A DNA stretch of 64,000 bases from Haloferula helveola (lineage in GTDB: Bacteria; Verrucomicrobiota; Verrucomicrobiia; Verrucomicrobiales; Akkermansiaceae). Below the pieces are notes generated by a model that saw nothing but the letters and a program-made list of their open reading frames with translations, ran no database searches and was not told the origin of the DNA. Shown here piece after piece: positions 43,337 to 57,138 of the stretch (positions within the stretch are counted from its first letter, which is position 1; every line of letters begins with the position of its first letter). A program made the position numbers and the translations under genes. The stretch lies in contig NZ_AP024702.1 in the NCBI RefSeq assembly GCF_037076345.1, positions 1,302,001 to 1,366,000 on the forward strand. Direction: 5' to 3'.

Positions 43337-44299
43337 TTGGGCCATCGACTAACAACCGCGCTGACGGGCGGCTTCGCGCTTGCCTGCGCACTCGGATTTT
43401 CCGCCTGCGACCGGGCCACCGACGCACAGGCCGACGCCGAGTGGTGGCGGCTGGAAGGTGATCGCCACGAAAAGTCGAGCCAGGTCGAACTGCTCAAGCA
43501 ACGGCTCGAGCGGAAGCAGTCCGACGGACTCGACGCGGAAGCGATCGCAGCCGGCTGGGCCGCTGTGGACGGCAAGGCCGAAGCCCTCGAGGCGCGCATC
43601 GTTGAATTGGAAGCCGCCAATGAGTCGCTGGTCGAAATGATCCGTTCGCAGCGCGAGCAGTGGCTCGCCCAACGCCGAGACGGGCAGCGCGGCCGCGAAA
43701 TCGAGGAACTCGCCAGCCGCAGCGGACGCACCTACCGCGACGTCACGATCAACCGCGTCACCGAGGCCGGGATCGAATTTTCCCATGCCACCGGACTGGC
43801 GCGGATGACTGCCGCCGACCTGACTCCGGAGCAGCGCGATGACTTCGGCATCGATTTCCAGCGCTCAACCGAACTCGTCGCCCGGGAAGACGCCCGCCAG
43901 CAGGCGTATCGCCAGTGGGTCGACGGCCAGCTGCTCGCCCGTGCCGAACAGGAGCAAAAGGACAAGCGTGCGGCCGAATTGGCGGCTGCCTCGGTTCGTT
44001 ACCGGCCGACTTTCGTGTCGGCGGCATCGGCCTCGACACTCGACACGACCCGCCGGATCAGCCCGCTCGATCAACCTGCGCGCAGCGTCGGACGCAGCAG
44101 TTTCTACAACGTCTACTACTCGCAGCCGTACCGCACGCGCTACTACACCCCGGCGAATCCTCTCTCCCGTGCGAAGTATCTCAATACGACGTCGCGCAAT
44201 GTCACCAACCGGGTCTTCCAGAACCGGCCCCGGGTCATTTCAAGAAGTCCGAATCCGCCACGCCGCCCTTCCCTACCACGTCCATGTCCAAACGACTGA
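43337..44299 (+). CDS. Coiled-coil lipoprotein with GRxYxDV domain (cluster gene 1)
   Basis: 320 residues from TTG (GHRLTTALTGGFALACALGFSAC); no ATG can supply this signal peptide, and the lipobox is GFSAC. Coiled coil at about residues 40-120 (SSQVELLKQRLERKQ, EALEARIVELEAANES). The shared short domain lies at about 133-175: SGRTYRDVTINRV, EAGIEFSHATGLARM. A Gln/Arg-rich helical stretch follows, then a Tyr-rich region (SSFYNVYYSQPYRTRYY) and a basic Pro/Arg tail. Its 3' end overlaps the next start by 16 bases. No known family; envelope role inferred. Confidence 0.78.
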   Translation: MGHRLTTALTGGFALACALGFSACDRATDAQADAEWWRLEGDRHEKSSQVELLKQRLERKQSDGLDAEAIAAGWAAVDGKAEALEARIVELEAANESLVEMIRSQREQWLAQRRDGQRGREIEELASRSGRTYRDVTINRVTEAGIEFSHATGLARMTAADLTPEQRDDFGIDFQRSTELVAREDARQQAYRQWVDGQLLARAEQEQKDKRAAELAAASVRYRPTFVSAASASTLDTTRRISPLDQPARSVGRSSFYNVYYSQPYRTRYYTPANPLSRAKYLNTTSRNVTNRVFQNRPRVISRSPNPPRRPSLPRPCPND

Positions 44300-44619
44300 C
44301 GGCCCGCACGCCATTTGCCCTCGCCCTCCTCTCCACCATCTTCCTCTCGAGTTGCGGCGATGATCCGGAACTGGTCCGGAAACGCGAAGAGCAGCGCGCC
44401 GAAATCCGCCGGCTGGAAGGCGAGCTGACGGTGCTGCGTGACAAGCTCGCCAACGCTCCCAAGGACCGGACCGCGGAGCTTGAGGAGCTGCAGAAGAAGA
44501 CCGTGGCGGAGCAGGCGAAGATCGCCGAACTGGAGACCACCGTCGCCGACCTCGGAAAGCGGAAGGATGAGCTCGAAGACGAGTTCAAGGACTACCAGCG
44601 CCAGTACCCGCTCCGCTAA
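44284..44619 (+). CDS. Small coiled-coil lipoprotein (cluster gene 2)
   Basis: 111 residues. Signal and lipobox: FALALLSTIFLSSC-GDD. Nearly all of the rest is one long coiled coil (RKREEQRAEIRRLEGELTVL, LQKKTVAEQAKIAELETTVA), ending in YQRQYPLR. This ending resembles the segment just before the GRxYxDV domain in genes 3 and 4 (EYQQSYRES, EYRRRYRIQ), so the gene looks like the stalk part of those proteins without the head. Confidence 0.8.
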   Translation: MSKRLTARTPFALALLSTIFLSSCGDDPELVRKREEQRAEIRRLEGELTVLRDKLANAPKDRTAELEELQKKTVAEQAKIAELETTVADLGKRKDELEDEFKDYQRQYPLR

Positions 44620-44637
44620 CTCCGAAACTTCCGAACG

Positions 44638-45678
44638 ATGGGAACCGACCTTTTTACCAGCAGTCGCGGCCCAGGGGTGATCGGCACCCTGATGGCTTTG
44701 CTCGTCCTCGGCGGCTTCGGCACGCTCTACGTGTTCGTCTTCGACGAAAGCCTGCAGGGCGACGGCAAGTCGCTCGAGTCGATTATTGCCGACGATGCCA
44801 AGCAGGTCGTCAGCCTCGAGAAGCGGGTCAAGTCGCACGAGGAACAGATCGCCGCGACCGAGGCCTTCAAGGACACGGCCTCACAGATTCTCTCCCAGCA
44901 GGCGAAGCTGACCGCCGCGGAAGCGCGCTCGGCGGAGTTGGAAGGCGCGGCAGCCGAGCGAAGCGCCGAAATCGAGAAACTCGAAGGATCGTTTGGCGAG
45001 TACCAGCAGTCCTACCGCGAGTCCGCCCGCGCCTCGATGGTCGGCAAGAAGATGGACGAGCTGAAGACGCTGGAAGGAACGACCTACAAGGACGTGAAGG
45101 TGACCGATGTCGATCCGGCGCGCATGCAGATCCGCCACTCCGCCGGCATTACCGGAATTGCCTTGGAACAGCTTCCGGAAGACATGCAGGACTACCTGCA
45201 GGTCGATGCCTCCGAGAAGGAGCGCCTTCTGGCCGCCGAGGAAGCAGCCAAGAAGCTCCGCAACCAGAGCGCCGACTTCGGCGAGGCGGAATACAAGATC
45301 GCGATGATGGAGCACGACCTGAAAGGGCTCGACCAGAAGCGCAAGGATGCCCGCAACCGATACAACACGGCTCAGGCGTCGATTCCCTCGCTGGAGATAC
45401 AGATTTCGCGCAAGCGGATCGAGCTTACGCAGGAAGAGCGCAAGGCGAGGTCCGGCGGCATCAGCAACGCCCCGCAGGTGCGCTCGCACATCCAGCAGCT
45501 TGAAAGCCGGATGGCCGCCGCCCAAAGCAAACTTCCATCTCTTCGCGCCGACATCTCCAAGCTCGACAACGACTACCGGGCGATGGAGCAGAAGATCGCG
45601 ATCTCCAAGCAGGAGCTGAAGACCAAGAAGGCCGAGGCCGCGGCGAAAAAGGCCGCCGAGAGCAAGGAGGAATCATGA
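44638..45678 (+). CDS. Membrane-anchored coiled-coil protein with GRxYxDV domain (cluster gene 3)
   Basis: 346 residues. One membrane helix near the N-terminus (VIGTLMALLVLGGFGTLYVFVF), then a coiled coil at about residues 50-130, then the shared short domain at about 143-188 (EGTTYKDVKVTDV, RMQIRHSAGITGI, LPEDMQDYL), then a second long coiled coil to the end (LESRMAAAQSKLPSLRADIS, KTKKAEAAAKKAAES). The single helix puts the coiled coils on one side of the membrane, probably the periplasmic side. It overlaps the next gene by ATGA. Confidence 0.82.
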   Translation: MGTDLFTSSRGPGVIGTLMALLVLGGFGTLYVFVFDESLQGDGKSLESIIADDAKQVVSLEKRVKSHEEQIAATEAFKDTASQILSQQAKLTAAEARSAELEGAAAERSAEIEKLEGSFGEYQQSYRESARASMVGKKMDELKTLEGTTYKDVKVTDVDPARMQIRHSAGITGIALEQLPEDMQDYLQVDASEKERLLAAEEAAKKLRNQSADFGEAEYKIAMMEHDLKGLDQKRKDARNRYNTAQASIPSLEIQISRKRIELTQEERKARSGGISNAPQVRSHIQQLESRMAAAQSKLPSLRADISKLDNDYRAMEQKIAISKQELKTKKAEAAAKKAAESKEES

Positions 45679-46637
45679 CCGCCTGGGACACCGATGACTA
45701 CGGCGGGATCATGGGCATCCTGCTGGGCATCATCGTCCTCGTCTTCGGTGGTATCACGGTCTCGCTCGTGATCGAGAGGCGCACCGAGGGTGCCCGCAGC
45801 GGGAAGACGCTGGAGGCGGACATCGCGCGCGACGCCAATCAGATCCTCGATCTCAAGTCGGAGATCATCACGCTGGAGAAGCGCTGGGAGAGCAACCATC
45901 AGCCGAATCTCGGACAGGATGGCGAGATCACCGCTCTCCGCGACGAGCTCAACCGGACCGTCGCGGAGCGCTCGAAGCTCCACAGCGATGCCGAGAATTT
46001 GCGGGAAGATTTGGCGGATTTTGAGGAAGATGCGCAGGAGTACCGTCGACGCTACCGGATCCAGGCCCGGGCGGATGTGATCGGTCAGGCGGTCGAAGCG
46101 CTCAAGCTGCCGAATGGCAGGAGCTATCGCGACGTCACCATCCGCAAGTGCGGTCCGGAAGGCATTCACATCCACCACTCCGGTGGCAGCGCCCGGGTCG
46201 CTTACTCGGACCTACCCACCGAGTGGAAGGACAGGCTGCAGTGGCATCCGGTCGAGGAGGAGCTTCCGGCGGTGGTGCAGGAGCAACCGAAGCCCGAAGA
46301 CGGGAAAGCCGGGCCGAAACCGGACTCCGACCGCGATGCCGAACGGGAAAAGGAGGCGTTGCGCCAGACCCGGATCCAGACCGCCCGGGACAGCATGCGC
46401 CGCTACCATGCCGACTATCTCGATGCCCGCCGCATGGCTTCCACCGCCCGCAGCCGCTCGCTGGGATCCGACCGCTCGGTGCCCGGCAGCCTGGAAACGT
46501 GGGAAGAACGGGCGCTCCGCATGGACCAGGTCGCGGCCAAGGCCCGCTCGCTGTTCATCCAAGCCCGCACGGAGCTGGCCACACTCAATCCGCGCGACCG
46601 GCTGCTCTCGGACCCCCGTTACCGCTTGGGTCCGTGA
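45675..46637 (+). CDS. Membrane-anchored coiled-coil protein with GRxYxDV domain (cluster gene 4)
   Basis: 320 residues, same plan as gene 3: membrane helix IMGILLGIIVLVFGGITVSL, coiled coil at about residues 45-125, shared domain at about 144-193 (NGRSYRDVTIRKCG, GIHIHHSGGSARVAYSDLP), then a charged helical C-terminal half (REKEALRQTRIQTARDSMRR). The overlap with gene 3 (ATGA) shows they form one translational unit. The family is unnamed as far as I can see. Confidence 0.82.
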   Translation: MTAWDTDDYGGIMGILLGIIVLVFGGITVSLVIERRTEGARSGKTLEADIARDANQILDLKSEIITLEKRWESNHQPNLGQDGEITALRDELNRTVAERSKLHSDAENLREDLADFEEDAQEYRRRYRIQARADVIGQAVEALKLPNGRSYRDVTIRKCGPEGIHIHHSGGSARVAYSDLPTEWKDRLQWHPVEEELPAVVQEQPKPEDGKAGPKPDSDRDAEREKEALRQTRIQTARDSMRRYHADYLDARRMASTARSRSLGSDRSVPGSLETWEERALRMDQVAAKARSLFIQARTELATLNPRDRLLSDPRYRLGP

Positions 46638-46684: not shown

Positions 46685-48013
46685 ATGAAAACCCGAAACC
46701 TCTTCCGCCGCGCCACGCTGGCGTCCCTCGCCGGCAGCACCGTTCTTCTCTCGTCGTGCAACGAGGACCAGTCCGCCGAGGTCGAACGCCTGACGGAGGA
46801 AGTGGAAGCGGTCCAAGGCGACTACGAGTCCGAAAAGCGGATGCGCGAGAAGGCCGAGGAGAGCTTGGAGAAGGTCTACGACGAACTCAGCGAGCTCAAA
46901 GGCGAGCTGTCCGCGGTCAAGTCGGAGCTGAAGTCGGCCAGCAGCGAACTGGCCCGCTACCGCAAGCGGGAAGAAGACGCCGAAGCCGCCGAGGAGGCGA
47001 AGCCGAGTCGCGAGGAAATGGCCCAGGCCGGACGCGAGGCGGCGGAGAAGAATCTGGCCGCCCGGGTGACCATCACCGGCGACAAGAGCACGGGCTCCGG
47101 AGTGTTGGTCGAGGAGGACGGCAAGACGTGGATCTACTTTTCCCTGAAAACCCTCGAAGGCAACAGCCAGCTCCAGATCGCCGGGTCAGGCGGCGGCGAA
47201 CTGACGAAGTTCGGCACCTTCGAAATCGACAACGCCCGCGGCCTCGCCCGCCTCGAGATCACCGAGGAGGTCCCCGCCAAGTTGTCCATTCCCGGAGAAG
47301 AAACCACCGAGACCGGCCGATCGACGACCCTCCTGACGGCCGACGAATCGGGCTCGCTGATCGAAGGCCGGTCCTACGGCCGGAGCAGCGACGGCACCAT
47401 CCGGGCCGACTCACGGATCAGCGCGGCACCGGCGGGAGCGCCCGTCCTCAAGGGCGACACCGGTGAACTGTTCGGAGTGATGGTCGAGGCCGATGAGGAG
47501 GAGCACCTGCTCTGGCCCGACAATTACAGCCGCCGTCGCCCCGGAGCGAAGACGGTGATCCGGCTTGGCGGTGACGCCGACTGGTCCGCGGTTCCGGTCG
47601 CCTCCTATCTCGAGGAAGCGAGGATCCTTTCCGAGATGGACCGCACCACCCGACTCGTTGCGGCCTTCGCGGCGATGTCAGTTTCCGGAAACACGATCAC
47701 CTACGGCACCATTCCGGATGCCCGCATGTCGGTCGAAGAAGTGCTTGAGGAACACTCGGGCGCCGATGTCGTTTCCTCGCTGAAAGAACTCTCCGATTGG
47801 CTCGGAGACAAGGGTGCCCGGGCCTCGGCGAGCGATGTCAACAAGCAGGTGGGCCGCGTGTTCGACGAGATCCAGGTGCTGTCCACCCGGCAGACCAAGG
47901 CCTTCGAAGGCAAGCGTTTCTCGGAAGCCCATACCAAGGAGGCGGCCGAGTCCCTCAAGTGGCGCAAGGAAGCCGAGACGGCGCTGGCCAAGACGATCAA
48001 CTCGATCGAATAG
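46685..48013 (+). CDS. Coiled-coil lipoprotein with inactivated trypsin-like domain (pseudoprotease)
   Basis: 442 residues. Lipobox LSSC at the start, coiled coil at about 30-105. From about residue 125 the sequence aligns with the protease at 55300-56616: STGSGVLVEEDGKTWIYF with GVGTGFLAESEGKVYLYT, and KFGTFEI with SFGKFEA. The three catalytic positions are replaced: His by Lys155, Asp by Gly186 and Ser by Ala250 (AAPAGAPV in place of QGNSGGPI). The C-terminal helical half also aligns in outline. It is therefore a pseudoprotease, perhaps a scaffold, inhibitor or substrate receptor. It follows gene 4 by 47 bases on the same strand. Confidence 0.85.
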   Translation: MKTRNLFRRATLASLAGSTVLLSSCNEDQSAEVERLTEEVEAVQGDYESEKRMREKAEESLEKVYDELSELKGELSAVKSELKSASSELARYRKREEDAEAAEEAKPSREEMAQAGREAAEKNLAARVTITGDKSTGSGVLVEEDGKTWIYFSLKTLEGNSQLQIAGSGGGELTKFGTFEIDNARGLARLEITEEVPAKLSIPGEETTETGRSTTLLTADESGSLIEGRSYGRSSDGTIRADSRISAAPAGAPVLKGDTGELFGVMVEADEEEHLLWPDNYSRRRPGAKTVIRLGGDADWSAVPVASYLEEARILSEMDRTTRLVAAFAAMSVSGNTITYGTIPDARMSVEEVLEEHSGADVVSSLKELSDWLGDKGARASASDVNKQVGRVFDEIQVLSTRQTKAFEGKRFSEAHTKEAAESLKWRKEAETALAKTINSIE

Positions 48014-54826: not shown

Positions 54827-55273
54827 TCAGGGGCGACTCATTTCCATCGTTCCCCGATCCCCGCGGTCGGAACGATACTTCGCCGAAAACTTCTCCGCAG
54901 TCACCCGGCCTTCGACCTGGTAGACGCCCACGCCGCCGGGAAGATCCATCTCTCCGTTGAACTCAATCGCGCCGTCGCCCGTCCGGGTGGCGGCGCGGTG
55001 CGTGTAGTCACCGAATTGCAGCGCCCCCCAGCCGGCGCGGTAGCGGAAGTCGTGATGATCCGGTCCGTCGGGCCGGATGACGCACCACAGCGGTCCGTGG
55101 TGGCCGTTGACCTCGCTCCGCCACTCACCCTTCCAAGGTCCGAGAGGTGATGTCGGCGGCACCGGCTGGGCGGCGACCGCCTCGCGGAAGTCCTGATGGT
55201 AACCGCCGGCGCACGACGCCACGAGCGGCACCGCCACCATGCCGAGCAGGCGAAGGAGAAATGGAATGAGCAT
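54827..55273 (-). CDS. Small lipoprotein of unknown function
   Basis: 148 residues. Signal peptide with lipobox: LGMVAVPLVASC-AGG. The mature part is beta-rich with PLGPWKGEWRSEVNGHHGPLW and YQVEGRVTAEKFSAKY, which could form a lipocalin-like barrel; this is only a guess. It lies 26 bases downstream of the protease gene on the same strand and may be co-transcribed. Confidence 0.75.
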   Translation of the reverse strand: MLIPFLLRLLGMVAVPLVASCAGGYHQDFREAVAAQPVPPTSPLGPWKGEWRSEVNGHHGPLWCVIRPDGPDHHDFRYRAGWGALQFGDYTHRAATRTGDGAIEFNGEMDLPGGVGVYQVEGRVTAEKFSAKYRSDRGDRGTMEMSRP

Positions 55274-55299: not shown

Positions 55300-56616
55300 T
55301 CAACGCAAATCGTCAACCGCCTCGTTGCAGGCCTTGTCGAGTTCCTCCCGGAGTTTCATCGCCTGCTCCGCCATCTCGCGGTGGAACCAGACGTAACGAT
55401 CCGGCTTGAACGCCCGCAGTTGGGCCCGCGACGACGACTGGATTCCGGTGAAGAGAGCGGCCACCTTCCGCTTGCGATCGGCCTCGCTGACTCCGGTGCC
55501 GCTCCCGCTTTTGTCGTCGATCCAGTCCTGGAGCGCGCGGATCTCCTTCTCAACGATGTGACCCTTGAAATCCGAAAGGCGGGAGCTCTCCCACTCGCTG
55601 GGCTGCATCGCGATGATGAACAGTTCGTTGAGATCGGTGACCTCCTTGAGCTTCTGCCCCTCACCGAGAAAACGGCCGATGGCAATGTCCTGCCATCCCC
55701 ACTTGCGGTCGAGACGGCAACCGAAACGGCGGACATCGGAATAGCGGGTCTCCTTCGCCCAATGGTCGAGACGGGCGGCAATCAGGTGCGTCACGACTCC
55801 GAGCACCTCGTGGGTCACGCCATCGAGGATCGGTCCACCGCTGTTGCCCTGAATCACGTCGGCATCAATCTCGATCGACTCCGCGCCAACACCCACGATC
55901 TTGCCCCGCTCGAAACCGACCGTGCCACCACCGCCGGCATTGCCTGCGGCGAAGACAACCATGTCCTCGCGGGCGCGACCCGATGAAGACGCGACTTTCA
56001 GCGGAGAGTCGACCTCCTCGGTCACCTCAAGGCGGACGAGATCCGCTCCGTCGGAGGCTTCGAACTTGCCGAAGGACGTGATCTTTCGCCCGTTCTGCAG
56101 CTTCACCGCCAGCCGGGTGTTGCCTGACAGCACGTGGGCGGCCGTGTAGAGATAGACCTTCCCCTCGCTCTCGGCGAGGAAGCCGGTGCCAACCCCTTGG
56201 TCACCCTCGATCACCACGATCGCCTTGGCCACCTTCTGGCCCGGCTTGGTTGCCTCACCCCGGACGACAACCGCTTCGCTCGCTTCACCCGGAGGCAGCA
56301 GGACGGACCATTCGGCCGGACCGTTGCCGAGGTCGATGCTTGCCGTGCTTTCGCGGCCGTCCTCCTCGTAACGGATCCTCACCACCCGACCGGACACATC
56401 GACCACCACCGGCTCCGGATACACCGTGCCGTCCTTGGTCTTGATCTCCTCGTAGCGGCGGCCGACCAAGCCATCGAGGGCGAACTTTCGGAGCGCCTCG
56501 TTCGACCGCTCGAGACGGTCGATCTTCTCCTCGGCCGTCTCCCCTGAGGCGATGGCAACGCATGCCGCCCAAGCCATTGCGATGGCCGCAATGCGGCCGC
56601 ATTTCACAGAAAACAT
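55300..56616 (-). CDS. Exported trypsin-like serine protease with GRxYxxV domain
   Basis: 438 residues from the ATG giving MFSVKCGRIAAIAMAWAACVAIASG. Coiled-coil-like start, then the short domain GRRYEEIKTKDGTVYPEPVV...GRVVRIRYEEDG at about residues 52-90. The protease fold has GVGTGFLAESEGKVYLYTAAHVLSG with His161, DGADLVRLEV with Asp192, and VIQGNSGGPIL with Ser259. All three triad residues are present, and no PDZ domain follows, unlike HtrA. The C-terminal 150 residues are helical. It aligns with the inactive protein at 46685-48013. Substrate unknown; probably periplasmic. Confidence 0.9.
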   Translation of the reverse strand: MFSVKCGRIAAIAMAWAACVAIASGETAEEKIDRLERSNEALRKFALDGLVGRRYEEIKTKDGTVYPEPVVVDVSGRVVRIRYEEDGRESTASIDLGNGPAEWSVLLPPGEASEAVVVRGEATKPGQKVAKAIVVIEGDQGVGTGFLAESEGKVYLYTAAHVLSGNTRLAVKLQNGRKITSFGKFEASDGADLVRLEVTEEVDSPLKVASSSGRAREDMVVFAAGNAGGGGTVGFERGKIVGVGAESIEIDADVIQGNSGGPILDGVTHEVLGVVTHLIAARLDHWAKETRYSDVRRFGCRLDRKWGWQDIAIGRFLGEGQKLKEVTDLNELFIIAMQPSEWESSRLSDFKGHIVEKEIRALQDWIDDKSGSGTGVSEADRKRKVAALFTGIQSSSRAQLRAFKPDRYVWFHREMAEQAMKLREELDKACNEAVDDLR

Positions 56617-56682: not shown

Positions 56683-57138
56683 TTACTCCTCCTTCTCGGG
56701 CGCCGTCTTCTCCGCAGCCGCTTCGGCGGCGGCCTTGCGGGCACGGATGAGCCCGTCGACGAAGTTCTGATCCTCCTCGCTGAGATTCGACAAGGGGTAG
56801 AGGTTGAACTGCTTGCGACCCTCCAGGAGCAGACGCACCTTGCCCTCGCTGACCAAGGTCAGCGGCTTGGTCTCGGGATCCGCCGGATTGCGTTCGAAGG
56901 CAAGCATGCAGGCGCGGATCACCTGCCCCTCCTTGTTCTTCCAGTCCCGAACGTCACAAACGGCAATGTAGGTGATCTTCTTCGGAGCTTGGTCCGGACG
57001 TGTCTTCCGGATCGAAACGGAGCCTCTCGCCGCCCCGCCATTCCCCTCGGTCTCGAAGGCGGTTGGAGATTTGCCGATTTCGTCAGCCGAAAGGCATGCC
57101 ATCAACGCGCAAACCATGCAGAGTGGGAGAGCTCTCAT
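56683..57138 (-). CDS. Exported protein with SHD1-like domain
   Basis: 151 residues. Signal peptide MRALPLCMVCALMACLSA. The region RDWKNKEGQVIRACMLAFER, then PLTLVSEGKVRLLLEGRK, then NLYPLSNLSEEDQNFVDGLI, has the spacing of the SLA1 homology domain 1: R-x-W, a V-x-L strand and PL-x-x-LS-x-x-D. SHD1 in yeast Sla1 binds NPFxD peptides; bacterial copies occur in Planctomycetes and Verrucomicrobia. The C-terminus is Ala/Lys/Glu-rich. It precedes the serine protease gene by 66 bases on the same strand. Confidence 0.78.
   Translation of the reverse strand: MRALPLCMVCALMACLSADEIGKSPTAFETEGNGGAARGSVSIRKTRPDQAPKKITYIAVCDVRDWKNKEGQVIRACMLAFERNPADPETKPLTLVSEGKVRLLLEGRKQFNLYPLSNLSEEDQNFVDGLIRARKAAAEAAAEKTAPEKEE

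Follow-up and report, generated by a model that had tools for sequence, protein, structure and literature searches.

The gene at positions 46685-48013 (plus strand) of the window, the stretch of 64,000 nucleotides of the Haloferula helveola contig NZ_AP024702.1 that was analysed as a whole, encodes a lipoprotein with a trypsin-like domain that is almost certainly a true pseudoprotease, all three catalytic residues having been replaced. The reading we favour, with a probability of roughly 60%, is that this protein is a non-cutting, stalk-mounted binding scaffold that acts independently of the paralog with an intact triad encoded at 55300-56616. The features on which the analysis rests, with the source of each in brackets, are as follows.

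46685..48013, plus strand: pseudoprotease lipoprotein, 442 aa, with signal peptide/lipobox, coiled-coil stalk, trypsin-like domain and helical C-terminal domain (sequence, BLASTP, alignment, model)
46685..46759, plus strand: lipoprotein signal peptide, ending in the lipobox LLSSC (Cys25) (sequence; similar N-termini in orthologs)
46763..46996, plus strand: coiled-coil stalk, residues 27-104, a single long helix in the model, with the heptad pattern at about residues 30-102 (model, heptad statistics)
47060..47593, plus strand: trypsin/HtrA-like domain, residues 126-303, catalytically degenerate (model, fold matches, shuffle test)
47147..47149, plus strand: Lys155 in the catalytic His position (pairwise and 74-member alignments)
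47240..47242, plus strand: Gly186 in the catalytic Asp position (pairwise and 74-member alignments)
47432..47434, plus strand: Ala250 in the catalytic Ser position (pairwise and 74-member alignments)
47594..48010, plus strand: helical C-terminal domain specific to the family, residues 304-442, without PDZ (model, profile)
43337..46637, plus strand: four-gene stalk operon cc1-cc4 (43337-44299, 44284-44619, 44638-45678 and 45675-46637) (conserved order, shared module)
55300..56616, minus strand: 438-aa paralog that retains the triad; its signal peptide lacks a standard lipobox; Pfam match Trypsin_2 (sequence, Pfam, model)
56134..56136, minus strand: His161 of the intact paralog (pairwise and 74-member alignments)
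56041..56043, minus strand: Asp192 of the intact paralog (pairwise and 74-member alignments)
55840..55842, minus strand: Ser259 of the intact paralog, in GNSGGP (pairwise and 74-member alignments)

The coordinates, reading frames and residue replacements proposed in the initial annotation were borne out: the pairwise and the 74-member alignments both placed Lys155, Gly186 and Ala250 of the lipoprotein exactly in the columns of His161, Asp192 and Ser259 of the paralog. The domain contains a single His (His274, located in a low-confidence, disordered loop of the model) and no Cys, and neither residue is among those invariant in the domain of the lipoprotein orthologs; therefore, the lipoprotein has no substitute triad. 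A different catalytic arrangement, such as a Ser-Lys pair or a displaced His, was rejected because the orthologs have no conserved His or Cys in this domain, nor have they conserved the old site. Scans of the lipoprotein against Pfam and NCBIfam returned only coiled-coil noise and sub-threshold matches, the Pfam Trypsin match being absent from the lipoprotein and from its direct orthologs alike, and a sequence search of the PDB with the lipoprotein alone as query gave no match.

Lipobox-type N-termini were also found in the orthologs of the lipoprotein's own clade (L003, L004, L104 and L109). The stalk, which had likewise been recognized earlier, is a genuine coiled coil, as 85% of residues at heptad positions a and d are hydrophobic versus 15% at the others, a bias equalled in none of 5000 shuffles. 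Its helix of 78 residues would measure about 115 Å by standard helix geometry and could thus reach across much of the periplasm.

Structure prediction assigned the trypsin-like fold to the lipoprotein, as had been anticipated. The AlphaFold2 model, computed from an alignment of 27 sequences that comprised the window proteins and related loci but not the direct orthologs of the dead protein, had a mean pLDDT of 85, with most of the protease domain exceeding 90. It matched HtrA2, DegS, DegQ and Deg1, with E values near 1e-7 and Z scores of 17-18.6; Foldseek gave E 6.5e-8 for HtrA2 and 1e-7 for other HtrA/DegS chains, and VIA-align gave Z 18.6 and an rmsd of 3.4 over 175 residues for the DegS-type structure 5jd8. 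The order of strands was equal in the models of the lipoprotein and the paralog, and the three catalytic positions fell at equivalent places, namely the His position in a short helix after the strand ending at residue 153 (lipoprotein) or 158 (paralog), the Asp position just ahead of the strand at 187 or 194, and the Ser position just ahead of the strand at 253 or 262. The C-terminal part was mainly helical in both models. No PDZ domain was found in either protein by Pfam scan, and a profile of the C-terminal domain gave only weak, chance-like matches in the PDB, while the whole-family profile matched HtrA proteases. Among the hallmarks of HtrA/DegP (S1C) proteases, the double beta-barrel fold is thus predicted for the lipoprotein, whereas the PDZ domain and the triad, the latter intact in the paralog, are missing.

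Homology between the two proteins through the trypsin-like core, as claimed from the sequence at the outset, was evident in BLASTP (354 columns, 27% identity, E 3e-28) and in a shuffle test on the protease segment (score 190 versus a shuffled mean of 35 +/- 6, z 25). It extends further than the initial annotation had recognized, spanning both the trypsin-like domain and a helical C-terminal domain of about 140 residues (score 110 versus 30 for shuffled sequences, z 15) and reaching the ends of both proteins. In the paralog, the signal peptide is followed by a small beta-rich module (about residues 50-96), the trypsin-like domain and the helical C-terminal domain that it shares with the lipoprotein. 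A lipid anchor and stalk are also carried by many catalytically intact family members, so that they are no mark of a dead copy; this points to the apparently soluble active twin as the derived form. A small gene (56683-57138) lies directly upstream of the active paralog; in genome G017 its ortholog abuts the ortholog of the gene at 54827-55273, the paralog being cleanly absent.

The family, which appears to consist of secreted HtrA-like proteins and centres on relatives of Haloferula and Luteolibacter, was defined by a search with the shared C-terminal domain as query among 260 genomes of the window's taxonomic family, and it was present in 55 of these genomes of the Akkermansiaceae-type lineage. 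Named relatives include Haloferula rosea, Haloferula luteola, Luteolibacter and Roseibacillus. Weaker matches occurred in eight further genomes from other families of the order, where the triad was always intact. The lipoprotein matched the family profile A1 with E 1.1e-45, a value to be read in the knowledge that A1 was itself built with the lipoprotein included; its membership is independent of A1 because the C-terminal part alone was related to that of the paralog in the shuffle test.

Catalytic ability has been lost at least about five separate times in this family. The H-D-S triad is kept in 49 of the 73 members of the tree and is degenerate in the other 24, which display 21 different residue sets, with all three residues replaced in ten. 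In a tree whose alignment omitted the triad columns and those next to them, and which was rooted on intact distant members, the 24 degenerate rows were nested among intact ones; seven triad changes were required (bootstrap range 6-7), at least five of them forced by well-supported branches, and placement of all degenerate members in one clade was rejected (AU p 5e-8). The lipoprotein's own clade comprises five genomes from genera g1 (that of the window), g7 and g13, in which the three positions read KGA, AAV, RPP, TGL and SDK, while 52 other positions are invariant, indicating that the old site drifts freely. Three members are degenerate only in part (L007, HDG; L043, HDS with an altered Ser loop; L105, HNS) and may represent half-way stages of loss. 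One member with an intact triad, L023 of genome G006, is split into two reading frames of 455 and 194 aa. No gene neighbour was conserved for the family as a whole beyond subgroups. In one degenerate subgroup of genus g13 (L158, L160, L163 and L164, with SST, SSA, HPT and HNS), the genes lie beside two conserved genes, one of them protein-kinase-like, and this arrangement may reflect a signalling link. Among the papers searched, nothing was found on this family or on inactive trypsin-like lipoproteins in Verrucomicrobiota. The repeated loss of the triad across the family is the part of these results that would be new to a specialist.

The variation of the catalytic residues between orthologs without any pattern could also be expected if the lipoprotein gene were a functionless pseudogene on its way out, and the split member of G006 and a dN/dS of 0.50 in one close degenerate pair (L114/L115) are in line with such passive decay. 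However, purifying selection was clear in the two other close degenerate pairs (dN/dS 0.07 for L045/L046 and 0.16 for L116/L117, like intact pairs) and weak only in the first. The direct orthologs of the lipoprotein are too diverged for dS, so that the case for selection on this gene itself rests on conservation of frame and residues: all five orthologs of the dead clade keep an open frame at roughly 31-48% domain identity, and lipobox, stalk, fold and C-terminal domain are retained without stop codons. Together with the high confidence of the predicted fold, these observations make decay very improbable. The ratio of identity in the protease domain to that in the C-terminal domain was 0.93-1.13 in degenerate clades versus 1.2-1.5 in intact clades, and such a reduced lead of the protease domain is expected if catalysis goes and the scaffold stays. 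Alternatively, the lipoprotein might belong to the cc1-cc4 operon and supply a structural envelope complex with the head domain that is absent from the stalk proteins. Its gene has the same orientation as cc4 and starts 48 bases after it. In cc1, cc3 and cc4 there is a stalk together with a small module of the GxxY type, which many full-length members of the family also have at their N-terminus. No Pfam family was found for the three cc proteins scanned. The initial annotation was thus right that a cluster of similar stalk proteins is present, but this cluster is independent of the dead gene. The order pfkB - dehydrogenase - cc1 - cc2 - cc3 - cc4 recurs in at least six related genomes, none of which has a dead gene following cc4, whereas in G014 the dead gene precedes nfeD and an SPFH gene, an arrangement also present in the window, and in G017 it follows a HAD gene, the cc3 homologs of both genomes being located on other contigs. 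The dead gene can therefore be separated from the stalk cluster, and we regard membership in this operon as improbable, if less so than decay.

The initial annotation further read the lipoprotein as a functional partner of the nearby active enzyme, that is, as a regulator, inhibitor or docking platform; its view of a pseudoprotease on a stalk stood, but the partnership was not supported by co-occurrence, by genome G017 or by the tree. According to this alternative, the lipoprotein binds the paralog, mixing into its oligomer or competing for its substrates, and thereby activates, docks or inhibits it. The two genes are no more than 9 kb apart, HtrA domains are known to trimerize, and in the MamE/MamO system the dead copy is needed for proteolysis by the active one (PMC4794232). 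A degenerate and an intact family member also occur together in G094, where they adjoin, and in G219, and the active ortholog is present in three of the five dead-clade genomes. Nevertheless, 11 genomes contain the active ortholog alone (Fisher p 0.10, from a presence/absence table compiled by hand), and G017 has the dead gene without the active one, whose two usual flanking genes are now adjacent. In addition, the degenerate copy is the sole family member in 17 of the 24 genomes that have one, 11 of these 17 being at least 95% complete, and in the window the two genes run in opposite directions, separated by several others. The absence of an active member here means none of this family, since all these genomes hold other HtrA-like proteases outside it. 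On the best tree the dead clade was not sister to the clade of the paralog. Thus, a model of an active enzyme with its dead twin is not general, and for the lipoprotein we consider it unlikely, though less so than the cc operon. Since the AU test did not reject sisterhood of the two clades (p 0.22) and both genes are present in three of the five genomes, a pair function is possible in those genomes.

A binding role for the lipoprotein is the most likely one because canonical catalysis is impossible while the scaffold is kept, and we infer an envelope location, a binding role and independence from the active paralog. The lipid anchor and coiled-coil rod would hold the trypsin-fold domain and the helical C-terminal domain away from the membrane. 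The trypsin-fold domain would then serve as a binding platform for the capture or sensing of an envelope ligand, whether protein, peptide or glycan, and the helical domain at the C-terminus might pass this on or hold the assembly together. The lipoprotein would act in its own right, and not as a partner of the protein encoded at 55300.

To our knowledge, few trypsin-fold pseudoproteases of bacteria have been worked out. The closest solved fold to the lipoprotein is the trypsin-like domain of the DegS/DegQ/DegP/HtrA proteases (Z about 18), from which it differs in lacking both PDZ domain and triad and in carrying a coiled-coil lipoprotein stalk and a helical C-terminal domain peculiar to its family. 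MamO is the closest worked bacterial precedent for a non-catalytic role: it can do without its triad, it binds metal as well as activating MamE, and inactive copies have arisen on three occasions (PMC4794232). MamO and the inactive MamE copies resemble the proteins described here in their HtrA-like trypsin fold, degenerate triad, origin by duplication, several independent occurrences and a non-catalytic role, which for the present family is proposed. In contrast, MamO binds metal and works with MamE within one gene island, whereas the Verrucomicrobiota family has no fixed partner, carries a lipoprotein stalk and a different C-terminal domain, has undergone more losses and is often represented by a sole member in a genome. 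A second likeness is to RsgI9 of Clostridium thermocellum, in which an S1C domain on a membrane-anchored sensor is reported to bind polysaccharide (cellulose) (PMC12203970), and whose S1C-NTF2 ectodomain (PDB 7sjy) was matched both by structure search and by profile. RsgI9 is likewise membrane-anchored with an S1C/HtrA-like domain, but it functions as an anti-sigma factor and contains an NTF2 domain, and neither feature was seen in the lipoprotein.

At the level of the family, it is conceivable, at a little under even odds, that the main conserved job is non-catalytic, cutting being dispensable and repeatedly lost while the lipid-anchored scaffold is kept; the lipoprotein would be one product of this process, with a sensing or binding role of its own in the envelope. 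Many such members are missed by Pfam annotation, the lipoprotein and its direct orthologs among them. While loss in MamO goes with an active partner, many of the losses described here are in genomes without another family member. The 73 members form a natural series of intact, half-dead and dead proteins that share one C-terminal domain and can be compared, so that what the scaffold does after the loss of catalysis can be asked directly.
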